Assembly (NCBI GenBank): GCA_030609365.1
Contig: JAUWCJ010000008.1
Span: 1 to 41,228, forward strand
Length of the DNA: 41,228 nucleotides
Direction: 5' to 3'
DNA from: Candidatus Eiseniibacteriota bacterium
GTDB taxonomy: Bacteria > Joyebacterota > Joyebacteria > Joyebacterales > Joyebacteraceae
Part shown: positions 28,327-40,852 of the stretch, in pieces
Numbering within the stretch: the first letter of the stretch is position 1
Layout of the letters: the number at the start of each line of letters is the position of its first letter
Position numbers and translations under genes: made by a program
The notes under the pieces: model-generated
What the model was told of the DNA's origin: nothing
What the model saw: only the letters and a program-made list of their open reading frames with translations
The model's database searches: none

Positions 28327-30624
28327 CTACCCGCGCCTGCCGCCGCCCGACGGCCGCGAGCGTGAGGGAGAGGGCGAGCGTGTGGGCGCAGGCTTGGGAG
28401 AAGGTTTGCTCGATTTCGCCTGACTCGTGCGCTGAGTGCCGCGGTCTCTAGACTTCTTGTCGCGGTCCAGACTCTTCGAAGGCTGCTGCTTCGGCGCCGA
28501 CCATCCGCCCTTCTTGTCGCGCTGCTGCCAGTCGTTGCCCTGCTTGCGGTAGACCTTCCCGTCCTTGCCGGCGTACACATCGTTGGGCCTGCTCGCCGGT
28601 ACCGGCTTCTTGGTCCGGGTCGGCCTGTTCCCCTGCACCGGCTTCGTGGCTGGGGTCGACACCGCCGGCCGACTTGCAGGAGACACCGGCCCCGTGGTTG
28701 GGGTCGACACTCCCGGCCGGCTCACAGGAGACGCCGGTCTTGTCGTCGGTGTTCCGGCCATCCGGTCTGCGCCGGTGTGCCTGATGCCCTTGTCGCGGGA
28801 CTTATAGAGGTTCCGTCCTCCGTAGGGTGCCGGTCCGGGTGGCCTGCGTCCTGGTCTGTTGCCCGGTCTGTATCCGGGTCCGTATCCCGGGTGGTAGCCG
28901 TGATAGTACCCGCGGTGATACCCGTGGCGGTACCCGTAGCGGTAGCCCACCGGACCCCACCATCCGCCCCAGTATGGCCTTCCGTAGCTCACATGAAGCC
29001 ACCCGTAGCTGACGCCGACCGAGAATCCCCAGCCGGTGTAGGGGTTCCAGTGCACCCCGTACCCGTAGGTCACGGGTCTGGGATAGTAGTACGTGCCGTA
29101 CCACGGCTGGTACCAGTATCCCGTGCCGTACACCACGCAACCGTGATAGACGTGCCAGCCGCCGTAGCCAGGCAGGTAGCCCACATAGACGACGTCGGGC
29201 GTCGATTCGTAGATGTACACGTACTTGACGTTCTGAACGGGGCAGTCTGCAGGGATGTCCTGTATCGCATCGGGCACCGATGTTGCGACCTCCCACGGTC
29301 CCTCCGGCCAGCGAGAGACGAACCAGATGGCTTCGTCACAGCAGTAGTAGGTGCCATCGACAAGCAGCACCGACTTGCTCGTGTTGATGGCGTAGGCAAC
29401 ATTGTCCGCGCACCTCTCGAACTGAGGGTCACCGTCATACTCGACCGTGACGGTCGCGGTCCTGCGGTCGACCTCCGCCGTCTGCGGGATCGAGGTCCCG
29501 AGCACCGCCTCCCTGGCCTCCTGCGTGCCGGCCACGCTCGCGCGCACGTTGGCGACCTCCGAGCCCGTGGGTATCTGGGCGAAGCTCTCGGGAACCTCGT
29601 CGGGAGGCACGTGCGTCCAGGTACTTCCCGTCATGGCATCGGACGCGTACCAGCGTCCCGCCACGAGCAGGTAGTACTGCTGCGTAACGATGTCCATGAT
29701 GACATCGCTCTCGGTGTTCCGAATGTAGAGGAGGTCCGTTCCCTCGACCGACGCGAACTCCGGCTCGCCATTGATCTGGATGAGCTCGGCCGGCTTCGTT
29801 CGCACCAGTATCTTCGGGGCAGGCTGCTCTCCCTCATCATCCTCCGGAGCCGCCTCCCGGCCCTGCTCCGCCTCCTGTTCCTCCTTCGCTATCTCCCTGG
29901 CGACGTCCGCCACCTTCCCTGGCAGGTTCTCCGCAACTGCCCAGTCAGCCGTCAGGTCCGGAGCGACGTACCAATGGTCGCCGCCCTTAAGAAAGTAACG
30001 CCCCGTCCCCGGGTCCTGAAGGATGTAGAACGGGCTGTTCGCCACGTACTTGAGCCCCTCGTGGTCCAGGTCGGCGAGTATCGGATCGCCGTCTATCATC
30101 ACGAGAACGGTGGGGGAGGTGACCACGATCAGCTCGGGGGCGTCATGGTTGAGGTCACCCTCCTCCCGCCCCACGCCCTCGACGTTTTCCAGCCCCGCCA
30201 GCAGGCGGTCCATCGACACGACCATCTCCCATTTCGGAATCTCTTCCTCGAGGTAATCGGTGAGTGCCTGAACGTCCTCATCTGCGGCTGATGGGAACTG
30301 CGCCGTCGTCACCTTCACGGACTCCAGGGACACCATCCGAGTGTCCATGTCGGTGACCACACGCGCCTCGAGCCACACGGCGCCGAAGACTGGTTCGCTC
30401 TCGCCTTTTGCTGTGACCGACACGGCGGCCCTGGCCTCCAGCTTGTCGCCGGAATAGCTCTCGATCTGCGGCTGGTACATGATTATCTGGCCCCTCTCGC
30501 CATCCAGCTGACGGGGCCACGAGACTGCGTTCTCTTCGTCTTGACCAAGCGAGGCCGCGGGCCAGAGGAGACACATCAGCAGGGCGAGAGTGCTGACAAG
30601 GCGAATTCTGTGCTTGAGTTCCAT
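28327..30624 (-). CDS. Exported protein with repeated WYA-type domains and Gly/Tyr-rich tail
   Basis: 765 residues with a signal peptide ending near ASLG-Q. The middle holds four similar units: AELIQINGEPEFASVEGTDLLYIRNTESDVIMD, then QQYYLLVAGRWYASDAMTGSTWTHVP; and YDGDPQFERCADNVAYAINTSKSVLLVDGTYY, then WFVSRWPEGPWEVATSVP. These match a widespread proteobacterial family often labelled carbohydrate-binding V/XII, whose function is unproven. They are followed by a Gly/Tyr/His-rich stretch (about 520-610) and a basic Pro/Ser/Thr/Arg tail with repeats (STPTTGPVSPASRP). The ATG at 30624 has GGAGG upstream. The 20-bp repeats at 30645-30704 precede it. Confidence 0.72.
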   Translation of the reverse strand: MELKHRIRLVSTLALLMCLLWPAASLGQDEENAVSWPRQLDGERGQIIMYQPQIESYSGDKLEARAAVSVTAKGESEPVFGAVWLEARVVTDMDTRMVSLESVKVTTAQFPSAADEDVQALTDYLEEEIPKWEMVVSMDRLLAGLENVEGVGREEGDLNHDAPELIVVTSPTVLVMIDGDPILADLDHEGLKYVANSPFYILQDPGTGRYFLKGGDHWYVAPDLTADWAVAENLPGKVADVAREIAKEEQEAEQGREAAPEDDEGEQPAPKILVRTKPAELIQINGEPEFASVEGTDLLYIRNTESDVIMDIVTQQYYLLVAGRWYASDAMTGSTWTHVPPDEVPESFAQIPTGSEVANVRASVAGTQEAREAVLGTSIPQTAEVDRRTATVTVEYDGDPQFERCADNVAYAINTSKSVLLVDGTYYCCDEAIWFVSRWPEGPWEVATSVPDAIQDIPADCPVQNVKYVYIYESTPDVVYVGYLPGYGGWHVYHGCVVYGTGYWYQPWYGTYYYPRPVTYGYGVHWNPYTGWGFSVGVSYGWLHVSYGRPYWGGWWGPVGYRYGYRHGYHRGYYHGYHPGYGPGYRPGNRPGRRPPGPAPYGGRNLYKSRDKGIRHTGADRMAGTPTTRPASPVSRPGVSTPTTGPVSPASRPAVSTPATKPVQGNRPTRTKKPVPASRPNDVYAGKDGKVYRKQGNDWQQRDKKGGWSAPKQQPSKSLDRDKKSRDRGTQRTSQAKSSKPSPKPAPTRSPSPSRSRPSGGGRRG

Positions 30625-30911
30625 TTCGTCCTCCGATCGTGCCGGCGTTTGTTCCAATGTACGAGTGCTTGTTCCATTGTATGGGCGTTTGTTCCAACGC
30701 TCGTTTGACGTGTGCCCGACCTGCTCCATTCAGCAACCAGGCCGGATGCGCCCCAGGGCATTCAATAGCACGTTTCAACCCTCGATAATAGGGCCCCTCC
30801 GACGGACGGTCAATTCATACCTGGGCGGTGCGTGGGGCGCGAGACACGGCGACATTCGCCCTGAAGGACTGACGCAAGCTGAGCTGGGGAGCGAATAACG
30901 GGACGGGGTGA
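30625..30911. other. Upstream region of the WYA-repeat protein
   Basis: 287 bp with no credible gene. It contains the ribosome site (30630-30635) and the 20-bp repeat array at 30645-30704. The part from about 30870 belongs to the repeated terminator module. Confidence 0.45.
30645..30704 (-). repeat. Three 20-bp tandem repeats (GTTCCA core) in the promoter region
   Basis: GTTCCA recurs at 30651, 30671 and 30691, exactly 20 bp apart, each preceded by G[CT]G[CT]TT or similar. On the gene strand the unit reads TGGAACAARC. Spacing of two helical turns, 20-80 bp before the start at 30624, suggests operator sites for a regulator. Confidence 0.65.
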
Positions 30912-30981: not shown

Positions 30982-33093
30982 CTACTCCCGCGCCACACGA
31001 ACCGAGGCCAAGCCCGCGTAGAGCCTCCCGTTGTAGAGACCACCCGCGACTACGGCCGTCTTCCGCGAGTGTCCGTCCGGCACGTTCGCGGCGGCAGTGA
31101 AGAGCCCGTCTGCACCCACCGTGCCGAGTACCGGATCCACCACCCGCCACTCGAAGTCCATGTCGACCGGGGTCCCGTCGCCGGTAGTGGCCTCTACCTG
31201 GAACTGAAACGACTCGCCCTCGGAGAGCGTGACCGACCGCGGCGAGACGTGCACGAACACCTGCGGGTCGGGGAGATCGAACACGATCGCGGCTACCCCG
31301 CGGAAGGTCTGCCCGCCGCCGACGCGAACCACGGCGACGATGTACCCTTTCGGTCTCTGCCACGAGTCCGGCTCCATGTGGAGATCAGCCGCCGTGAAGT
31401 CGCCATCGGGAGAGATGTGCCCGAGGTGTTCGGGCCTGACGTCCCAGAAGACCGGCAGGTCGAGCACCTCGCCGTTGGGACCGAGAACCTCGGCCTCGAA
31501 GTGCGTTGTCTGCCCCGGTATCACGATGGCCAGGGCCGGGCGCACCCGGACACTCACCGGATGTCCCGGGAGCCTGATGCGCACGTGCGCGCGGTCCGAG
31601 AGCGTGGACCCGTCCGGCAGGGTCGCCATCGCGCCGACGACACCCTCGTGGGGTCCGAAGTCGTGCGAGGCGGGGTCGCCGAAGGCAGGGTTGGCCGTGA
31701 AGAGCCCGTCGGGAGTGATGATGCCGAGTTCCCTTGGGAAGACGGCCCACTCGGTGGTCCAGTCAATTGGTCCCTCGGCACCTATCACTCTCGACCTGAA
31801 CTGTATCTCCTGGCCGGGGGCCAGGACCGGCCTCTTCGGGCTGATCTGGAGTCTGAGCGCGGGACCCGAGTCTCTCACCACTACGCGCGCCCCATCGCTC
31901 GCCACTCCCGCGTTGGTTTCGACCGACGCGGTCACGGCGCCGATCCATCCGCCGTCGTCCGGGGGTTCCGGCATCTCGTCGGCAGCCGTGAACAGCCCGT
32001 CCGCGCCGATGGAACCGAGCCACATCGGGCGGAGGGACCACTCTATGGGAATGTCCAGCGGCTCGCCGTCCGGTCCGATGGCGATGGCCTCGAACTGCAC
32101 GTCACCGCCCAGCACTACCGCCGCTTCACGGGGCCTGATCCTGACCCTCACTCCCGCTGGCCCGACCCGCCGTATCTCCACGCGCGCGAACCCGCGTGCG
32201 GGCCCGCCGCTCGTCGCCACCGTTGCCACGATCCTCCCGACGCCTTCGTCCGGACCGGCGGTGAAGAGCCCGTCGGGGCCAATGACACCGAGCCGCCGGG
32301 GCATCACCGACCACTCGACGTCGGCGTCGAGCGGGTTCCCCGACTGATCGATCACGACCGCGGTGAACTGGAATTCCTCCCCGGGGCTGACAAGCGCGCT
32401 CACCGGCACGACATTCACCCTGACGCCCGGTCCAGGCGGCGTGCCCACGACCAGCGATGCGTTACCGACACCTTCGCGTTCGCCCGCGATCGCTCGCACG
32501 GCCACGCGCCCCGCGCTCTCGTCGTCTCCGGCGGTGAAGATGCCCGTGTCGTCAATCGAACCGAGTCGTTCGGGTATCACCACCCACCGCAACTCCGCGT
32601 CCACCGGGTCGCCCGTCACCGGGTCCCTGACGGTCGCGGAGAAGTGCTCCTGCCCTCCGGTCTCGACCACTGCGTTCGGAGGCTCCACCGTCACCAGGAG
32701 CTTCGCTGGAGGCTCCGAGCCGACGTCGATCACGGAGTGCCCGGCGCCGGTTGCCTCCCCGCACCTTGCCAGTGCGCGGACGATCGCGCGGCCGGGCGCA
32801 CCAGCGACGAATCGTCCATCGCTTCCCATCGCACCCACCCGGGGCGGGATCACAGACCACATGACATCCGCTACCACCGGTTCGCCGTCACTGTCGTACA
32901 CGTTCGCGACGAACGCGACCTCGCCGCCCGGGAGGGCGTGCGCTCTCGTCGGAGACACGCGGACCGTGAGTTCGTCGGTAGCGAGCGCCCCGGACACGAG
33001 CGCCAGAGTGGCGAGGACCGCCAGCATGGCGATCGCTCCACTCCGCGCGTTGATTGTTCTTCGTGATCTCATTGTCAGTTGTCTTGTGAACAT
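30982..33093 (-). CDS. Exported protein of seven bacterial Ig-like repeats
   Basis: 703 residues with a signal peptide (cleavage near GALA-T). Seven repeats of about 95 residues follow, each with the motif W-x-[VL]-x-P-x-x-[LV]-G-x-[IM]-x-x-x-G-x-F-x-A (for example ELRWVVIPERLGSIDDTGIFTAG and DVEWSVMPRRLGVIGPDGLFTAG) and a preceding V-x-V-x-P strand with a GQ-x-[HQ]-F turn. This resembles Big_2-type Ig domains of surface proteins. There is no anchor or sorting domain. The ATG at 33093 is used because GGAGG stands 8 nt upstream; ATG 33117 and 33099 are poorer. It is last in the ECF-sigma operon, 31 bp after the membrane protein gene. Confidence 0.8.
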   Translation of the reverse strand: MFTRQLTMRSRRTINARSGAIAMLAVLATLALVSGALATDELTVRVSPTRAHALPGGEVAFVANVYDSDGEPVVADVMWSVIPPRVGAMGSDGRFVAGAPGRAIVRALARCGEATGAGHSVIDVGSEPPAKLLVTVEPPNAVVETGGQEHFSATVRDPVTGDPVDAELRWVVIPERLGSIDDTGIFTAGDDESAGRVAVRAIAGEREGVGNASLVVGTPPGPGVRVNVVPVSALVSPGEEFQFTAVVIDQSGNPLDADVEWSVMPRRLGVIGPDGLFTAGPDEGVGRIVATVATSGGPARGFARVEIRRVGPAGVRVRIRPREAAVVLGGDVQFEAIAIGPDGEPLDIPIEWSLRPMWLGSIGADGLFTAADEMPEPPDDGGWIGAVTASVETNAGVASDGARVVVRDSGPALRLQISPKRPVLAPGQEIQFRSRVIGAEGPIDWTTEWAVFPRELGIITPDGLFTANPAFGDPASHDFGPHEGVVGAMATLPDGSTLSDRAHVRIRLPGHPVSVRVRPALAIVIPGQTTHFEAEVLGPNGEVLDLPVFWDVRPEHLGHISPDGDFTAADLHMEPDSWQRPKGYIVAVVRVGGGQTFRGVAAIVFDLPDPQVFVHVSPRSVTLSEGESFQFQVEATTGDGTPVDMDFEWRVVDPVLGTVGADGLFTAAANVPDGHSRKTAVVAGGLYNGRLYAGLASVRVARE

Positions 33094-33124
33094 GTCCATC
33101 ACCTCCGGGAGACACACAGTTCCA

Positions 33125-33742
33125 TTAGACCTGCTCGTCCAGGGATGGCCGCTCTCCGTTCAGGGCGTAGAAGAGCCACGATACGTCCCTGAGCTTTCTG
33201 CCAGAACCGTCCTGTATTTCGATGGTTATGATGTGCTCGCCTTCCTCGAACTTCTCCGCCGGGGAGTACATCACGTAGCTTCCTGTTACCTCCGCCAGTC
33301 CCGTCACGTCCATCTCGTCGACGTAGAGCCGGACGATCCCCTGCTCGACCGGCGGGTATATCGCCGCGACTATCTCGACGTCGTTGGCGCCGACGACCGA
33401 GTTGTCCGCGGGTGTTACCGGGTCGATGTTCGCCTGCGCGATGCTCACACTGGGCGCGACCGGTAGCAGGACAGGCCCGCCACGGTCGATGTTCACGACG
33501 ATGAGTACGAGCGCTACGACGCACGCACCGGCCACTGCCCATGCGAGCCGCGGTGAGCGGAGACGCTCCACCCAGGTGGAGCCGGTGGATGCCGCGCGCG
33601 CCCTCGCCTGCAGTCGCTCGGTGTGGAACGGAGGCAGCTCGACGGGGCGAAGCTCCCGGAGAAGCTGTTCGATCTTCTCCTCGGAGGGTCCGGCCCCGGG
33701 CGGGCGGTTCAACTCGTGCCGGTTCTTCTTGTTATCAGTCAT
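33125..33742 (-). CDS. Single-pass membrane protein, probable sigma-factor regulator, with Ig-like periplasmic domain
   Basis: 205 residues. It has a cytoplasmic N-terminus of about 65 residues (with EEKIEQLLRELRPVELPPFHTERL), one membrane helix (AWAVAGACVVALVLIVVNI) and a periplasmic domain with LYVDEMDVTGLAEVTGSYVMYSP and EGEHIITIEIQDGSG. Its place right after an ECF sigma gene suggests an anti-sigma factor, but the H-x3-C-x2-C zinc motif of common anti-sigmas is absent. The periplasmic domain is similar to residues near 170-260 of the beta-barrel protein in the same operon. The ATG at 33742 has AAGGA 8 nt upstream; the frame to 33823 lies within the sigma gene. Confidence 0.68.
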   Translation of the reverse strand: MTDNKKNRHELNRPPGAGPSEEKIEQLLRELRPVELPPFHTERLQARARAASTGSTWVERLRSPRLAWAVAGACVVALVLIVVNIDRGGPVLLPVAPSVSIAQANIDPVTPADNSVVGANDVEIVAAIYPPVEQGIVRLYVDEMDVTGLAEVTGSYVMYSPAEKFEEGEHIITIEIQDGSGRKLRDVSWLFYALNGERPSLDEQV

Positions 33743-33779
33743 TCGCTGCGTCCTTGCTGTGGCGCTCCGGCGCGCCTGG

Positions 33780-34289
33780 TCAGACCTTGTCCGCGAGCAG
33801 GTCGGCGAGAAGCGCCTTCCCACGCGAGATCCTCGACTTGACCGTGCCTATGGAGCAACCGGCCGCGGTCGAAATCTCCTCGTAGCTCATCTCGTCTATG
33901 TACCGAAGTGTTATCGTCTCACGAAACGCGGGCGGGAGCTGGGCTATCGCCTGACGTACCGCCTGCGCTCGTTCCTGCTCGAGCACCGCATGTTCGGCCG
34001 TGCGGGTCTCGAAGGAGGGCGAGGGGTCCTTCGCCTGGTGCTCCCTCCAGAGCTCCGCTCGCCTCGCGTTCTTCCTGTACCTCTTCTTGAGGACGTTCAG
34101 GGCGATGCGATAGAGCCAGGTGAACGGGTCCGCATCACCGCGGAAGCGCGGGTAGGCCTTCATGGCCCTGATGAACGCCTCCTCGGTCAGATCGAGCGCG
34201 TCGTGATAGTTTCCGGTCAGTCCGTACATGACGTTGAACAACCTCTTGTCGTAACGGGCAACCACCTCTTCGAAGTCCAGCCTTGCCAT
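33780..34289 (-). CDS. ECF-subfamily RNA polymerase sigma factor
   Basis: 169 residues. Region 2 (VVARYDKRLFNVMYGLTGNYHDALDLTEEAFIRAMKAYPRFRGDADPFTWLYRIALN) and region 4 (LPPAFRETITLRYIDEMSYEEISTAAGCSIGTVKSRISRGKALL) have the spacing of RpoE-like ECF factors, and region 3 is absent as expected. It directs RNA polymerase to a small regulon, normally under a membrane anti-sigma factor, here probably the next gene. The ATG at 34289 has GGAGGGGG upstream. Confidence 0.95.
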   Translation of the reverse strand: MARLDFEEVVARYDKRLFNVMYGLTGNYHDALDLTEEAFIRAMKAYPRFRGDADPFTWLYRIALNVLKKRYRKNARRAELWREHQAKDPSPSFETRTAEHAVLEQERAQAVRQAIAQLPPAFRETITLRYIDEMSYEEISTAAGCSIGTVKSRISRGKALLADLLADKV

Positions 34290-34349
34290 CGACCCCCTCC
34301 GATTACCTCACTCAGACATTAGAGGCCCCGCACGCCGCCCGTGTTCCCG

Positions 34350-36569
34350 TCAGAACGTATGTCCGACATCCAGTGCTATTACGTGCTCAGTGTAGGATCC
34401 AGACGGGTTTGCCCGGTCCTGCCAGTCGATCAGCCAGTACTCGACCTCGAGGTCCACAGGCCCGAAATCCCACCGCGTCTCGAACGTGTAGTGTGAACGG
34501 GTGTAGTCCGTCTCGTCCCCCGACCCCGCTGTCCATCTTGCGGCCACCCGCGCGGTCCACCTGTTCTGGATTATCTCATGCTTGATGTCGCCTGACGCCG
34601 ACCAGGTGTCCGTTTCGTCGGGAGAGCGCACGCCCGACCACGATACGTTTCCCAGGATGTGCGTCCGACCGCGCCGCCACGTCCCCCCAAGAGCGCCGTA
34701 GGCGTACGTGTAATCGTATGTGACGCGGGGGCTCCTGTCGTATCGCGCGACCACGTAGGTCCGGGCGCTGCCCTCGTTCACCAGCCACGTGAGCTCGGCG
34801 CGCGAGTAGACCTTCAGTTCGTATTCGTCTTCCGCGAGATATGATCGGGAGTTGAACGAGCGTCCCGTGCGGATCCAGCCCGACGAGCTGAACATCTCGT
34901 TCGGGCGGTATGAGTAGTCGAGTGCGAGCGTGTGTTCGCCGGGCTCGTACTCGTACGTTCCGGCCGAGTAGTAGTCCGGCTCACTGGCAACATACTCCAG
35001 AGAGACGCGGTTCCGCCAGTCACGTTTGAGTTCCAGCTTCGCACGAAACGCGGTGCCTCTGCCCTGAACCTCGCCCACGGCATCGGAGCGCGCCAGCTCG
35101 AGCTCACCCGAGAGATCGCCGTTCGTCGTGCGCACCAGTCCGGCGACGACGTTGTTCCGGAGCGGCTCCGTGATCTGCTGCTCGTCGGTCACCGACTCTC
35201 TGCGGTCGAAAACGGACAGGTAGATCACTGAGGCACTCAGGCGCTCGCCTAAGGAGAAGCTCTGCTTGCCGCCGGCGGCAAAGCGCGAGTAGATCCCGAA
35301 CCCGGCCAGTGTGTCCGCCTCGCTCATCCGCATGCCGACCAGTTCGGTCGTGCTTCTGCCGGCGCGTGCGGACAGCCTGCCGCCCCGTCCGACGGCCCAG
35401 TTAAGAGTAGTCGGTGAGAGGGAAGGAAATACGTCTCCGGCTTCGACCTTCAGCTTCTCCGTGCCGCCGCTCACCAGCCAGTCGAGCTCGTCGCTGTAGA
35501 TGGGGTCGTACCGCGCAGTAATCAGGAGGGTGCGCGCGCCTCTGACGCCGGACACGTAGAAGTCGTAAGACGGGCGGAAGACCTCAGCGTAGGGGAGGAA
35601 AACGTCGACGGAGTCGACCGCGGGAGTTTCTGCGGCGACCTTGACCCAGCCGGCCTCCATCCTGCCGGCGATCTGCCATGTGGTGTCGGATGCCGCCCAG
35701 GCAGCGTCGAGTTCCTTCCAGGTCGGGACGGTTCTCCAGGGACTCCCGACAGGTCCGTCAGCCCGGAGCCAGTCTTCGGAAGGCTCGTCACCCACTGTTC
35801 TCTCGTGCACGAAGAACACCCAGGACGTCTCCACCACTCCGGTCGTGGTCAGCGCCGAGAACGTCAACCTGTGTGGTCCGGTGCCGAGCGGCTCGACGGG
35901 CGCGAAGAGGAAGAGGTCGGAGGTGATCTCCGAGAGTTCCGTGACGTCGACGCCGTCGAGCAGTGCGAGCGCGTCCCACGGCTCGTCGAGCGGCGGGTCG
36001 AAGAGTGCCGCGATCTGCGGCGTGTCCTCCGCTACGACCTCGCCGGGCAACGGACTCAGAATCTCGACGGTTCGTGACGCCCAGCCCGGGTCCGGAACTC
36101 CGGGACCAGGTTCGGATGCCGGACCTGGTTCGGACCCCTGCCCTGGTTCGGATACCAGACCTGGTGCGGAGCCCCGCCCGCCTTCGACCGGCACCACCAG
36201 CAGTCCTCCCTCCGGCGCGCCGGGGGGGACGGTCACGACAATCCCGTCCATGTCGACGACGCGCAGGTAGTACGAGAACGAAGGTAGCGTCACGAGGACA
36301 CCCGGGACCTCGCCGAAGAGCGAGTTGCGCGACGGCGTGAGGGGGATCGAGCGCAGCTCGCCGTCCGGCATCGCAACGACGACGTCGGCCGAAGCGATGC
36401 GCTCGGGAAATACGTCGCCCACGAATACGGCCTCGATACCGAGAGGCTCGCCGGCGACGGCGCGAGGAGGAGGGGAGTGCCTGATGCTGAACGACTGCCC
36501 GCGCGCGGTCGCGACGGGCGCCAGTGCAAGGGCAACACAGATGTAGGGGACCAGTCGTCGGGACTGCAT
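34350..36569 (-). CDS. Outer-membrane beta-barrel protein with periplasmic Ig-like module
   Basis: 739 residues with a signal peptide (to about ARG-Q24). An N-terminal beta domain is followed by a Gly/Pro/Glu linker of SEPG units (about 138-160) and an Ig-like module (QIAALFDPPLDEPWDALALLDGVDVTELSEITSDLFLFAP, then GPHRLTFSALTTTG). A long barrel of alternating strands (about 290-739) ends with ALDVGHTF. The terminal Phe marks it as a BAM substrate. No plug or TonB box is visible, so it is not a TonB receptor. The ATG at 36569 has AAGGAG 8 nt upstream. It leads the operon, 60 bp before the sigma gene. Role unknown; sensing or surface display is plausible. Confidence 0.75.
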   Translation of the reverse strand: MQSRRLVPYICVALALAPVATARGQSFSIRHSPPPRAVAGEPLGIEAVFVGDVFPERIASADVVVAMPDGELRSIPLTPSRNSLFGEVPGVLVTLPSFSYYLRVVDMDGIVVTVPPGAPEGGLLVVPVEGGRGSAPGLVSEPGQGSEPGPASEPGPGVPDPGWASRTVEILSPLPGEVVAEDTPQIAALFDPPLDEPWDALALLDGVDVTELSEITSDLFLFAPVEPLGTGPHRLTFSALTTTGVVETSWVFFVHERTVGDEPSEDWLRADGPVGSPWRTVPTWKELDAAWAASDTTWQIAGRMEAGWVKVAAETPAVDSVDVFLPYAEVFRPSYDFYVSGVRGARTLLITARYDPIYSDELDWLVSGGTEKLKVEAGDVFPSLSPTTLNWAVGRGGRLSARAGRSTTELVGMRMSEADTLAGFGIYSRFAAGGKQSFSLGERLSASVIYLSVFDRRESVTDEQQITEPLRNNVVAGLVRTTNGDLSGELELARSDAVGEVQGRGTAFRAKLELKRDWRNRVSLEYVASEPDYYSAGTYEYEPGEHTLALDYSYRPNEMFSSSGWIRTGRSFNSRSYLAEDEYELKVYSRAELTWLVNEGSARTYVVARYDRSPRVTYDYTYAYGALGGTWRRGRTHILGNVSWSGVRSPDETDTWSASGDIKHEIIQNRWTARVAARWTAGSGDETDYTRSHYTFETRWDFGPVDLEVEYWLIDWQDRANPSGSYTEHVIALDVGHTF

Positions 36570-36742
36570 CCAATCAGCTCCTTGCGGGCTTCGTGTGGCG
36601 CGGTGCCTGGAACCCGGTCAGTCTACTCCAGCCGCGGCGCGGCGTCCATCGGGTCTTCCGGGAACATACCGGCGGCCGACGTCCTCTAAGCAACTGAGAC
36701 GACGGGAAGACGCGTACTACTCAAGGACAGTAGGAGGAAAGA

Positions 36743-37651
36743 ATGCGGAAGAAAATGTCGGTGCCAGTGATCGCCGCGGCGCTTCTGACGCTCGGGCTGT
36801 TCGTGCTCGCCGGTTGCGGGGACGCCATCACCATGACGGACGTGAGTGAACTCAGTGACGAGGAGGCACTCCGCGAGTTTGTTGAGGACCACGGCTTCTT
36901 CGATGAGACCGAGATCTACGGCGCGGATCCCATGGACTCGGACGGGTCCGGCTCGCGTGAGGAGATCGACCCGCTCACCTTCTGGCGGGAGGTGACCGAA
37001 AGACACGTTGTGCGCGACGTCTACATCGATCATGAGGCAGGGATCGCCGAGGTCACGATCTACAAGGAGATTTGGGGCACGCTCAACATCATCGACGAGA
37101 ATATGATCGAATACGAGAAGCCGATGCACCACGAGGGTGTGAGGTACGCCGTCTTCCAGCGCAACGACGACGTGGCGTTGGGGAACAACTACGGGCATCT
37201 TGGAGAGACCGGCAACACGCATCGTCACCGCAGGGGCCGCTGGACTCTGACGGCCATCTCGGGCCTCGTTGCCAACTCGGTCGAGACGCTGACAATGGAC
37301 ATCGAGTGGATTCAGGTGCAGAGCGCGACCGTCGACACCGTCATCACCGATCCGTCGGCTCTCATGGCGGTACCCGATGAGATCATGAGTTTCGAGATGG
37401 GCGAGGAGGTCACCGTGACCGTGTCCGGTCCTCCTGAGGATGCGATCCTCTTCCTGCACACACGCGGCCACCGTTCGCCCCTCCATTACGACGGGGGCGT
37501 GTTCGTCGGAACGTGGACAGTGACACGCGACGGTGTCCACTGTGCAGGCATCCAGGCGCTGGCACACGACTCGATCTACGATTCCGAGTACCCCGATGAC
37601 AGTCTGATATGGGGCATGCCATACGAGGTCGGTGAGGAGCCGGAGGAGTAG
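36743..37651 (+). CDS. Lipoprotein of unknown function
   Basis: 302 residues with lipobox VLAGC (acylated Cys25) and an acidic N-terminal region (SDEEALREFVEDHGFFDE). The beta-rich body includes RDVYIDHEAGIAEVTIYKEIWGTLNII, RHRRGRWTLTAISG and a C-terminal Ig-like part (EEVTVTVSGPPEDAILFLHTRGHRSP, then DDSLIWGMPYEVG). No family recognised. The ATG at 36743 follows GGAGGAAAGA. It is divergent from the barrel-sigma operon, separated by 173 bp that must hold both promoters, and may respond to the same signal. Confidence 0.7.
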   Translation: MRKKMSVPVIAAALLTLGLFVLAGCGDAITMTDVSELSDEEALREFVEDHGFFDETEIYGADPMDSDGSGSREEIDPLTFWREVTERHVVRDVYIDHEAGIAEVTIYKEIWGTLNIIDENMIEYEKPMHHEGVRYAVFQRNDDVALGNNYGHLGETGNTHRHRRGRWTLTAISGLVANSVETLTMDIEWIQVQSATVDTVITDPSALMAVPDEIMSFEMGEEVTVTVSGPPEDAILFLHTRGHRSPLHYDGGVFVGTWTVTRDGVHCAGIQALAHDSIYDSEYPDDSLIWGMPYEVGEEPEE

Positions 37652-37746
37652 GCAGCAGGACCACCTCGGCGGCTGGCGTTGCAGGCCCACTAAGATCCTC
37701 ATCCTTCCGCCAAGCAGCAGCACGGCCGCCGACAACATTGCATCGG

Positions 37747-37775
37747 AGCCCCGGGTCTCTCAAAGACCGGGGGCT
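37747..37775 (+). terminator. Terminator between lipoprotein and pilin-like gene
   Basis: 12-bp stem AGCCCCGGGTCT / AGACCGGGGGCT with one mismatch and a 5-nt loop, followed by a T-containing stretch, 95 bp after the lipoprotein stop. It also argues against the 37738 start of the next frame. Confidence 0.65.
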
Positions 37776-37833
37776 TCGGTTTGTGTGGGGAGGGCGCCCG
37801 GTTTTGGCACGTTGCATGCATCTATCCGGCAGA

Positions 37834-38319
37834 ATGGAACTCTGCCGCCAGAGGGGATTCACATTGGTCGAGGTCATGATCACGATCATGATCATCGGTG
37901 TGCTGGCAGCCGCGGTGCCCCCGATCCTTGCGAACTCCATTGAAAGGGCCAAGATCTCGGAGGCCACGGCGGCATTGGGCTCGATCAGACGCGCCATGCG
38001 GATGTACTACGCCGAGCATGGCAGCTACAAGGATCCCTACTTCACGGCCGGCAGGAAGGTGACGTTCGGCAGGATCCTCATGGTCAGCGACACCGACCTT
38101 GAGGGACGCTACTTCAGCAGTGATTGCTACACGTTCGAGAGAGTGAAGAGACGCACGTTCCGGATTAAGTGCAGCGGGGAGGCAAGTACTGCTCCGGCCG
38201 CCCGCGGCGTATCGTATGTTACTCTCTACATCAATCAACTAGGCGACATCTGGCGCGGCGGCGCGCCGGACGACAGCCCCCTCCGGTATCTAGCAGTGCC
38301 TCTTGTCGGTAGGGACTAG
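37834..38319 (+). CDS. Type IV pilin-like / type II secretion pseudopilin
   Basis: 161 residues. The prepilin signature CRQRGFTLVEVMITIMIIGVL has cleavage expected after Gly8, N-methylated Phe and Glu at +5. It is followed by an alpha1 helix (PPILANSIERAKISEATAALGSIRRAMRMYYAEHGSY) and a small globular part with two Cys (SDCYTF, IKCSG) that may form a disulfide. It would be processed by a prepilin peptidase and assembled in a pilus or pseudopilus. The gene stands alone, with no assembly genes nearby. The ATG at 37834 is the family-typical start but has a weak ribosome site; ATG 37816 and TTG 37804 (behind GGGAGGG) are alternatives. Confidence 0.85.
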   Translation: MELCRQRGFTLVEVMITIMIIGVLAAAVPPILANSIERAKISEATAALGSIRRAMRMYYAEHGSYKDPYFTAGRKVTFGRILMVSDTDLEGRYFSSDCYTFERVKRRTFRIKCSGEASTAPAARGVSYVTLYINQLGDIWRGGAPDDSPLRYLAVPLVGRD

Positions 38320-38463: not shown

Positions 38464-38587
38464 ACAACAAGTTCAATAACACGGTGCCCTATTGCCGCCG
38501 CTCGAGCTGGCGCTCGCGGCGACCCGTGTATCTATGGGCTGCGTGTGTCGACACAGAATCCCGAGAGGTGGGGCAGGAGACTGGATT

Positions 38588-40852
38588 GTGAAGAGGGTAG
38601 GAGTGGCGCTGCTACTTGTCGTGCTCGCATCCGCGGTGCTTGCCGCGGCGCCGGCGCGTGGCGTCGGCGCCATCGAAGGAGCGGTCACAGACAAGTACAC
38701 GCACCAGCCCCTCTTCGCCGCCGATGTCGTAGTCGTCGGCACGACGCTCGGTGGGATCACAGATCGGGACGGCAGGTTCGCGATCGGCGACGTGCCGGCC
38801 GGGAGCTACCGGGTCACGGTCTCGATGATGGGATACGAGGTTACGGCCGTGGACGACGTCGAGGTTCAGGACGGTCCCGCCACGACAATGCAGCTCGAAC
38901 TCTGCCCACGGGTCCTGGACATTGGCCTGGATGTGCTCGTCGAGGCGAGTCACTTCCGCCGGGACAGTGAGAAACCGACGAGCTTCAGGACTCTGACCCC
39001 CCAGGAGATGCGCTACTCTCCGGGCGCGATGGAAGACGTCTTCCGCGTGCTTCAGTCCATGCCGGGCGTCAGTCCCGCGGATATGACGAACTCTAATCTG
39101 ATAGTCCGCGGCGGTGACCCCAGCGAGAACCGCACGCTGTTCGAGAACATCGAGATACCTCGGGCGCTGCACTTCGGCCGTCCCGGGGGAACGATAGGCG
39201 GGATCAGCATCGTCAGTCCGAGCCTGCTCGAGAGGGTCGACTTCCTTACCGGCGGGTTCCCGGCGAGGTACGGCGACAAGGTGTCCTCGGTCTTCGAGAT
39301 GAAGCTGCGGGACGGCAGCAGCACGGACTACAGCACCAACATCAACTTCAACATGGGTGGATTCAGCCTCGCGGCGGACGGTCCCATGCCCGGAGGCGGG
39401 ACGATGCTCCTCTCAGCGCGAAGAGGGGTCTTCGACCTGCTGACATCGACGATGGGCGTCCCCGCGCTCCCCTCGTACTGGGACGTAGTGGGTAAGGTGA
39501 CGTACGACCTCGGCAGCTCGAACAGGCTCTCCCTCGTCGGCTTCTACTTCCCCGATGACCTTGAGATCGCGGCTGACCCCGAAGAGGAGAACAGGCATGG
39601 GATGTGGCCCGGTCTCGATCTGGAGCGCAGGGACCACGGCAGGGCCGTGGGTCTGAACTGGCGCTGTCTCCAGGGCGAACGCGGCTACGTCCTGACGACG
39701 GCCTCGCACGTGAGCAACAGCTGGACGACAAGCCGCGGTACGGAGCAGGAGCCCGGTCTCGTCGGTGACGCGATCCGGGAGGAGGAGTTCCAGCTGAAGA
39801 GCGAGCTGAACCGCAAGCTCTCGGATCGAGTGAACGTGAGATTCGGGGTCTTCGCCCGGCAGATCCACTCGGAGCAGAACACGTGGAGCGTCTCGGACAC
39901 GATGGCCTCAGGCGAGGTCATTCCGAGCTACCGGGTGACGTACAACCCTGACCCGACCTACAAGGCCGGCTCCTACCTGCAGGCCACGGTCAGGCCCTTC
40001 AGTCGCGTTTCACTGACATCCGGGCTGCGCTACGACTACTATGACTTCACCGGCGAGTCGAAGCTGAGTCCCAGGCTTGGTGTGGCCCTGTCGCTGACCG
40101 ACCGGACCACTCTCAACGCGGCGTACGGGCACTACTACCAGACAGCGGCCCCGTGGCAGGTCGCTTCGCACCCGTCCAATACGACACTTCGCAGCAGCGG
40201 CTCGGTTCACTACGTCGCCGGCCTGAAGCATCTGCTGTCCGGGAACACGCAGGTCAGCGTAGAGGCGTATCACAAGGAACTGAGCGACGTGTTCGTTCAC
40301 AGCTACACCTCGAGGATCACGACGAACGAGGGAAGTGGCTATGCCCGAGGCGTGGAGTTGTGCGTCCAGCGCAAGATGAGCAAAGGACTGGTCGGAAGCG
40401 TGGCTTACACCTACTCGGTCTCCGTGAGGAGAGACGGAGCGTCCCTGCCGGAGTACTACTCGGAGTTCGACCGCCCCCACAATCTCACTCTCGTAGGAAG
40501 CTTCGCGCCGACCGACAAGTGGCGCGTGGGGGCGAAGTTCCTCTACGCGACCGGGAGCCCGTACACGCCGATCATAGGCTCCGAGCAGGTGGACGGTGAG
40601 TGGTACGCCGTGAGCGGTCCGAAGAACTCCGCGCGCTATCCCGACTACCACATGCTCGACGTTCGCATCGACCGCTCCTTCCAGTTCGCGAACTGGAAGC
40701 TGATGGCGTATCTGGATCTGTGGAATATCTACGGCTACCAGAACGTGACGCTGTACAACTACTCGATCGATGAGAACGGCACGGTCACCCGGACGGTTCC
40801 CGATGAGGCGCCTCGCATGCTCCCGATCCTGGGGCTGGAGGCGAGGTTCTAG
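38588..40852 (+). CDS. TonB-dependent receptor with carboxypeptidase-like N-terminal domain
   Basis: 754 residues with a signal peptide and a CarboxypepD-regulatory-like domain (GAIEGAVTDKYTHQPLFAADV, then GRFAIGDVPAGSYRVTVSMMGYE). The plug has EDVFRVLQSMPGVSP, NLIVRGGDPSENRTLFENIEIPRALHF and ERVDFLTGGFPARYGDKVSSVFEMKLRDG. A beta-barrel closes with LGLEARF, the terminal Phe being the BAM signal. The GTG at 38588 follows AGGAG with 8-nt spacing; the frame opening at 38492 overlaps the leader. No obvious partner genes, so the ligand is unknown. It shares domain order with the receptor at 9038-11824 but is shorter and only distantly similar. Confidence 0.88.
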   Translation: MKRVGVALLLVVLASAVLAAAPARGVGAIEGAVTDKYTHQPLFAADVVVVGTTLGGITDRDGRFAIGDVPAGSYRVTVSMMGYEVTAVDDVEVQDGPATTMQLELCPRVLDIGLDVLVEASHFRRDSEKPTSFRTLTPQEMRYSPGAMEDVFRVLQSMPGVSPADMTNSNLIVRGGDPSENRTLFENIEIPRALHFGRPGGTIGGISIVSPSLLERVDFLTGGFPARYGDKVSSVFEMKLRDGSSTDYSTNINFNMGGFSLAADGPMPGGGTMLLSARRGVFDLLTSTMGVPALPSYWDVVGKVTYDLGSSNRLSLVGFYFPDDLEIAADPEEENRHGMWPGLDLERRDHGRAVGLNWRCLQGERGYVLTTASHVSNSWTTSRGTEQEPGLVGDAIREEEFQLKSELNRKLSDRVNVRFGVFARQIHSEQNTWSVSDTMASGEVIPSYRVTYNPDPTYKAGSYLQATVRPFSRVSLTSGLRYDYYDFTGESKLSPRLGVALSLTDRTTLNAAYGHYYQTAAPWQVASHPSNTTLRSSGSVHYVAGLKHLLSGNTQVSVEAYHKELSDVFVHSYTSRITTNEGSGYARGVELCVQRKMSKGLVGSVAYTYSVSVRRDGASLPEYYSEFDRPHNLTLVGSFAPTDKWRVGAKFLYATGSPYTPIIGSEQVDGEWYAVSGPKNSARYPDYHMLDVRIDRSFQFANWKLMAYLDLWNIYGYQNVTLYNYSIDENGTVTRTVPDEAPRMLPILGLEARF

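Follow-up and report, generated by a model that had tools for sequence, protein, structure and literature searches.

The locus described here lies on the minus strand of the window, by which we mean the whole stretch of 41,228 nucleotides that was analysed, taken from a genome of 2.78 Mb in 206 contigs. Four genes follow one another in the direction of reading: an outer-membrane barrel protein (36569-34350), an ECF sigma factor (34289-33780), a membrane protein (33742-33125) and a protein with Big_2 repeats (33117-30982). An earlier note on this DNA had proposed just such a set of barrel, ECF sigma factor, Ig-bearing membrane protein and Ig-repeat protein, and it is indeed present at that place and in that order; the two peptides which that note had quoted were likewise found in the sequences of the barrel and of the membrane protein. 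The promoters and a divergent gene for a probable lipoprotein are additions of the present analysis. The features are given below with window coordinates, strand and, in brackets, the evidence.

30982-33117, minus: secreted-type protein with seven Big_2 repeats (Pfam Big_2, E=1.7e-16; seven repeat motifs; kept in 15 of 15 loci)
33125-33742, minus: predicted membrane anti-sigma factor, 205 residues, with a zinc-free cytoplasmic tail, one transmembrane helix and an Ig module (sequence, model, orthologues)
33149-33433, minus: shared Ig module on the anti-sigma factor (BLASTP, profile comparison, model, profile search)
33482-33553, minus: transmembrane helix of the anti-sigma factor, residues 64-87 (sequence; helix in the model)
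33584-33685, minus: conserved segment of the anti-sigma factor, residues 20-53 (hhalign E=1.2e-8 against the C-terminal half of the zinc domain of the second phylum, introduced below)
33780-34289, minus: ECF sigma factor, 169 residues, regions 2 and 4 (Pfam Sigma70_r2, E=5.4e-17; Sigma70_r4_2, E=1.6e-16)
34319-34348, minus: ECF-type promoter motif GGGAAC-N18-CTCTAA (just past the stop codon of the barrel gene, 30 nt 5' of the sigma start)
34350-36569, minus: outer-membrane barrel protein, 739 residues (sequence, model, alignment of 13 full-length orthologues)
35802-36074, minus: shared Ig module on the barrel, residues 166-256 (BLASTP, profile comparison, profile search)
36660-36689, plus: second copy of the promoter motif, divergent from the barrel (motif search)
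36743-37651, plus: probable lipoprotein (LAGC box found by eye; orthologues beside the barrel in six other contigs)

The start of the membrane protein is most likely the ATG at 33742 and not the GTG at 33823, the longer frame overlapping the sigma gene, and the Ig-repeat protein has an alternative start at the ATG at 33099. On the 3' side of the operon, an 800-residue protein with a Tyr/Gly-rich stretch and a basic Pro-rich tail is encoded at 28327-30729 (minus strand) and matches no Pfam family; its gene was considered as a fifth operon member and rejected, as it was not found in the other 15 stretches examined from the phylum, some of which are short. Beyond the lipoprotein gene, the plus strand encodes a type IV pilin-like protein (37738-38319; N_methyl, E=7e-10) followed, at 38492-40852, by a genuine TonB-dependent receptor whose N-terminal domain is carboxypeptidase-regulatory-like.

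The operon is conserved well beyond the window. The gene for the membrane protein is present in 15 of 20 genomes of the window's phylum and the barrel gene in the same 15, all of which keep the order barrel, sigma factor, membrane protein, Ig-repeat protein (among these loci one barrel is split over two contigs, one sigma gene is interrupted by a stop codon, and some genes are cut at contig ends). The remaining five genomes are without the system, which is thus not essential in this phylum. When 386 genomes were searched with a profile, and 20 stretches from among the places listed were examined, two full-length relatives came to light in another lineage, which we call the second phylum. There, the membrane protein is encoded in 10 of 10 genomes, each time with the genes for the sigma factor, anti-sigma factor and Ig-repeat protein in the same order; the barrel gene stands upstream in nine, and in the tenth the contig ends first. 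The survey of operon conservation suggested by the earlier note has therefore found the order kept in two phyla (15/15 and 10/10 genomes). Neither a relative of the whole operon nor a further full-length relative of the membrane protein was found outside these phyla among the other genomes of two largely overlapping 386-genome samples, in which matches to the Ig module within open frames of several hundred residues are common. Titles of the orthologue records read Candidatus Eisenbacteria or just bacterium, with a single Candidatus Effluviviaceae (NCBI phylum Candidatus Effluviviacota). For Candidatus Effluviviacota, an excerpt of a paper of 2024 in mBio gives a Gram-negative cell wall as predicted for two genera, and the main text of that paper does not contain the words "sigma" or "outer membrane" (PMC11323493).

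The barrel protein consists of a signal peptide, two N-terminal Ig-like domains, a Gly/Pro-rich linker and about 24 predicted strands ending in a C-terminal Phe; the earlier note is to be corrected in that there are two such domains, the shared module being the second only. It matches no Pfam family at E<=1, Plug (PF07715) and TonB barrel (PF00593) included, while the window's own TonB receptor at 38492-40852, used as a positive control, matches both; the idea that the barrel itself is a TonB receptor was thus ruled out. A search against sequences of solved structures found nothing useful, and the AlphaFold2 model is of low confidence (pLDDT 64.8), with pilus ushers among its weak Foldseek matches (rmsd above 9).

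The sigma factor is composed of regions 2 and 4 only and reaches 103.7 bits against TIGR02937, for which the cut-off is 42.9. In 25 of 25 loci the gap between barrel and sigma genes (or, at loci with no barrel, the stretch between the flanking genes) contains the motif GGAAC-N18-CTCTAA; for the window's phylum, where we searched for GGAAC without the usual preceding G, this holds for GGAAC-N18/19-CTCTAA in 15/15 loci. In 14 of these 15 the distance from the end of the motif to the sigma start is 27-31 nt; in the last, which has the interrupted or truncated sigma gene, 71 nt separate the motif from the remaining frame. The 214,611 bases from the window's phylum contain 21 matches, the only others being six copies divergent from the barrel, which in the window precede the gene of the probable lipoprotein (36743-37651). 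In 159,370 bases from the second phylum, 16 of the 18 matches lie upstream of the sigma gene within the operon (two that abut the sigma frame are counted here), with at least one in each of the 10 loci; part of them precede the gene for a FecR-domain protein, and two lie elsewhere. The reversed pattern gave no match in either phylum, and 200 letter-shuffled patterns gave means of 0.28 and 0.21 and a maximum of 4, against the 21 and 18 real matches. Because the pattern was read off the first-phylum loci, the count there is no independent test, but that in the second phylum largely is.

The FecR-domain protein is encoded between barrel and sigma factor in 5/10 operons of the second phylum (L081, L113, L114, L116 and L119); the one scanned matches PF04773 with E=2.5e-20, and the others were assigned by homology. 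Some of these genes have their own copy of the ECF-type motif.

As the motif stands in the barrel-sigma gap of all 25 loci, the sigma factor probably controls itself, the anti-sigma factor and the Ig-repeat protein, with the barrel under another promoter. No copy of the motif was found directly before a barrel and reading towards it. Upstream of all eight second-phylum barrels examined (L080, L081, L114-L119) there is instead a strongly conserved sigma-70-like sequence, TTGACT-N17-NANNAT, with the ATG about 7-8 nt past it, so that the messages of these barrels are probably leaderless. Among 13 barrels examined in the window's phylum a similar sequence precedes four (by a relaxed pattern), and a simple scan of the window for sigma-70 promoters gave no hit ahead of the barrel. 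Taken together, the lack of the ECF motif before barrels and the presence of sigma-70-like sequences suggest that the barrel is expressed separately, as the sensing part. The divergent probable lipoprotein (36743-37651), which matches no Pfam family, is a likely sigma target in part of the phylum. A whole-genome search for GGGAAC-N17-19-CTCTAA gave three sites for the window's genome; over 20 genomes there were 29, compared with 11 when the pattern was reversed, and the genome-wide target set is predicted to be small. A third copy (L175:5165-5193, G000:C110), present also in one relative (L176:4996, G008:C305), lies about 290 nt before the gene for a membrane protein with PMT_2 and TPR matches, a possible further target.

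The earlier note had observed that the membrane protein lacks the zinc anti-sigma motif, and in fact HX3CX2C occurs in none of the 15 orthologues of the window's phylum. It is present, however, in 10/10 membrane proteins of the second phylum, so that its absence, rather than marking a new kind of regulator, is a loss within one anti-sigma family. The tail of the window's protein aligns with the C-terminal half of the second-phylum zinc domain (hhalign probability 95.6, E=1.2e-8, 39% identity over 36 columns). A match to an NCBIfam anti-sigma family is weak (E=0.00093, far below the cut-off). In four other loci, picked for a match to the anti-sigma profile mainly in the segment of residues 20-53, the gene of the matching, anti-sigma-like protein is directly adjacent to an ECF sigma gene in all four. 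AlphaFold2 places helices at residues 20-30 and 38-53 with low confidence.

According to an excerpt of PMC7406223, class I anti-sigma factors contact sigma region 2 by helix 4 and region 4 by helix 1, and zinc and non-zinc members are mixed within groups. Only the C-terminal half of the zinc domain is recognisable in the window's version, and no segment matching helix 1 is found in its tail. The protein is thus best read, from its sequence, as a class I anti-sigma factor reduced to a C-terminal segment, which by its position would be helix 4; perhaps the reduced tail acts as a two-helix clamp. Homology of the tail to the C-terminal part of class I domains argues against a tail that does not bind the sigma factor. 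The resemblance to the class II factor CnrY, whose two helices make the same two sigma contacts (PMC7406223, excerpt), covers a short zinc-free cytoplasmic part, two predicted helices and one transmembrane helix; unlike CnrY, the present protein has a segment homologous to the C-terminal half of a zinc domain, which points to a reduced class I domain. A FecR-like identity was rejected, as neither STN/FecR nor any other Pfam family is matched and the protein's own genome has no FecR domain. No RsgI family occurs among its Pfam and NCBIfam matches, and a search against sequences of solved structures found nothing useful.

The likeness between the module of the barrel and that of the membrane protein, which was the central claim of the earlier note, is well supported. 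BLASTP of the full proteins aligns them with E=2e-9 (27% identity over 113 columns), and the profile-profile comparison proposed in that note gave E=1.5e-13 for the window's phylum and 1.9e-18 for both phyla (hhalign, using the 22 of 26 barrel frames that have the module); a chance likeness is ruled out by these values. The AlphaFold2 models agree as well, with seven strands in the same order and at similar spacing, confidence being high for the anti-sigma copy only and low for the barrel copy (block means of about 50-60 pLDDT). Foldseek places the module model among Ig-type sandwiches, nearest to CopC, fn3 and adhesin domains, and its profile finds only weak matches (SiiE, UpaB, CopC) among sequences of solved structures. 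Neither the barrel nor the anti-sigma factor reaches the gathering score of Big_13, as homologous archaeal modules do. Nor does the shared module belong to the Big_2 type seen in the Ig-repeat protein, in which its profile finds no match.

Of the 30 genomes that represent the two phyla, 18 were searched with a profile built from the two copies (E<=0.01). It detected exactly two modules, one per protein, in all 15 operon genomes tested (10 of the first phylum and five of the second), and none in three of three first-phylum genomes without the operon. Each module is also the best conserved part of its own protein. Mean identity between genera (the barrel fragments of G005 and G004 were left out) is 64% for the anti-sigma module, the same as for the sigma factor, and 56% for the anti-sigma helices; it is 48% for the barrel module, 41.5% for the barrel proper and 39% for its other Ig domain. 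An anti-sigma module as conserved as the sigma factor favours a fixed protein partner.

On the other hand, the fold itself is common, occurring in archaeal, Chloroflexi and other proteins, and at least 12 modules from elsewhere, chosen for resembling the anti-sigma profile, lie at a shorter distance from the window's anti-sigma module than the barrel module does (2.64 changes per column for the nearest, 3.39 for the barrel module). By this measure the anti-sigma module appears closer to outside Ig modules than to its supposed partner, which counts against a private pairing. One clade uniting all the anti-sigma modules with all the barrel modules is not established, but neither is it rejected (AU p=0.217). 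In the module tree, from which five short matches were left out, one group (98/96) holds the anti-sigma modules of the two phyla and another, weakly supported (96/26), their barrel modules. Grouping by protein across phyla means that each copy is old, and a recent duplication inside the operon was ruled out on this ground; the layout seems to predate the divergence of the two lineages, unless it was passed whole between them.

Related Ig modules were also seen in several large proteins per genome at L082-L086 (G275) and other loci; these proteins are partly barrel-like beyond the module and have no such sigma gene nearby. In a Chloroflexi record (JACQEA010000045.1; L056:6492-8372), one 626-residue frame combines matches to sigma region 2 (Pfam E=1.2e-4) and SdrD_B with what looks like a transmembrane helix and a Big_13-like Ig module related to the shared one.

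The reading that we favour, with somewhat more belief than doubt, is that the locus encodes an autoregulated trans-envelope ECF sigma switch, in which the barrel signals through Ig modules to the anti-sigma factor. At rest, the anti-sigma factor would hold the sigma factor at the inner membrane by its helix-4-like segment. The barrel, expressed from a promoter of its own, would respond to a surface ligand or to the condition of the outer membrane and report this by way of its Ig module, presumably periplasmic; the signal would reach the Ig module of the anti-sigma factor directly or through the Ig-repeat protein. The resulting change would expose the anti-sigma factor to proteolysis by RseP-type peptidases, and Peptidase_M50 genes of this type are present. 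The freed sigma factor would then transcribe its own gene and those of the anti-sigma factor and the Ig-repeat protein, further targets being the divergent lipoprotein here and the FecR-domain protein in part of the second phylum. The parts, their conservation, the homologies and the motif are seen in the sequences themselves; we infer that the sigma factor uses the motif, that the tail binds the sigma factor, and that contact of the modules, the signal and proteolytic release act as outlined. The earlier note had read the shared modules as competing for or exchanging one ligand, perhaps the Ig-repeat protein; of its reading there stand a real, conserved sigma/anti-sigma operon, homologous modules and only two copies per genome tested, but the two modules are not each other's nearest relatives. 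As to the Ig-repeat protein, its gene lies behind an apparently sigma-dependent promoter, which fits an output of the switch at least as well as an input, and its exchange as a ligand is one option among several.

Three other explanations need to be weighed. The best of them, though in our judgement unlikely, is shared-ligand sensing in the manner proposed for Clostridium SigI/RsgI: the anti-sigma module would be a copy of a binding domain, both modules would bind the same glycan, protein or ion, and the proteins need not touch. A module of a common binding-type Ig fold, with CopC, fn3 and adhesin domains as its nearest matches, would suit such a role, and the RsgI-like anti-sigma factors of cellulosome producers do have carbohydrate-binding modules, with SigI autoregulated (PMC4711584, excerpt). 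The anti-sigma module would, however, lie inside the outer membrane, so that an outer ligand would have to enter, and conservation equal to that of the sigma factor is more readily expected of a module with a fixed protein partner than of one that binds a varied ligand from outside. The likeness to SigI-RsgI of cellulosome-forming clostridia lies in an anti-sigma outer module used also in other proteins of the system and in an autoregulated sigma factor; the present system differs in its ECF sigma factor (the best 25 of its 96 NCBIfam matches are to ECF families), Gram-negative envelope, Ig instead of carbohydrate-binding module, and a barrel in the operon.

Less probable again is a check on export or assembly, in which the barrel serves to export or anchor the Ig-repeat protein; when either of them is stuck in the periplasm, the anti-sigma module would notice it and the sigma factor would adjust supply. 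ZirT/ZirS is a two-partner intimin-like secretion system that pairs a barrel with an Ig-repeat protein. In the present loci, too, barrel and Ig-repeat protein are always encoded together, the Ig-repeat gene lies behind the sigma promoter motif, and one second-phylum Ig-repeat protein gives weak matches, below cut-off, to Invasin_D3 (E=8.3e-4) and ZirS_C (E=0.0036). These matches, however, amount to generic Ig likeness, the usher matches of the barrel come with a high rmsd from a low-confidence model, and no passenger or secretion signature was found; the two systems have no common sequence family above cut-off, and here a sigma and an anti-sigma gene stand between the two. Least probable is that the modules are not linked at all, a common Ig domain having been recruited twice by an ordinary envelope-stress sigma pair and a barrel that is a mere neighbour: the widespread Ig superfamily, two copies that are not nearest relatives and a barrel outside the sigma promoter motif would allow it, but in the genomes tested there are two copies per genome, always in these two genes and none where the operon is missing, and gene order is kept in two phyla.

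The trans-envelope switch that we favour also has a precedent in principle. Excerpts of published work describe homologous STN domains on receptor and anti-sigma factor that take part in direct contact in PupB/PupR and FoxA/FoxR (PMC7186176, PMC11637429): the signalling domain of PupB and the C-terminal STN domain of PupR share a fold and form one complex (PMC7186176), and the FoxA domain was reported to shield FoxR from proteolysis in the absence of a signal (PMC11637429). The claim of the earlier note that no system with this layout had been described therefore holds for the layout, for which we found no description, but not for the principle, which these excerpts already document. Systems of the FecA-FecR-FecI type likewise combine a barrel, a single-pass anti-sigma factor and an ECF sigma factor in one locus, with homologous periplasmic domains. 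The differences are that plug, TonB barrel, STN and FecR domains are lacking here and Ig modules stand in their place, that there is an additional Ig-repeat protein, and that the motif precedes the sigma gene and not the barrel. Though it lacks the receptor, STN and FecR domains of the FecIRA type, the system may yet work in a FecA/FecR-like way. Literature on Ig-bearing anti-sigma factors, on cell-surface signalling and on the lineage gave no description of it, within a scope that left most subscription papers outside.

What we describe is thus a variant form of trans-envelope ECF sigma signalling that is conserved and of which no description was found. Going further, we would tentatively propose, doubting it more than we believe it, that it represents a second class of outer-membrane-to-sigma signalling without TonB receptors or STN domains, in which barrel and anti-sigma factor communicate by matched Ig modules, the Ig-repeat protein, itself under sigma control, serves as a bridge or feedback ligand, and one lineage has cut the zinc domain down to a two-helix clamp but retained the Ig sensor. 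If true, the use of homologous paired domains to signal to an ECF sigma factor from the outer membrane would have arisen with an unrelated fold and an unrelated barrel, and the logic of FecA/FecR would be a general solution, reaching beyond TonB receptors. Two poorly known phyla would gain a regulatory circuit open to testing, its promoter predicted and its targets few, and the zinc and zinc-free anti-sigma domains behind the same sensor would offer a natural comparison.
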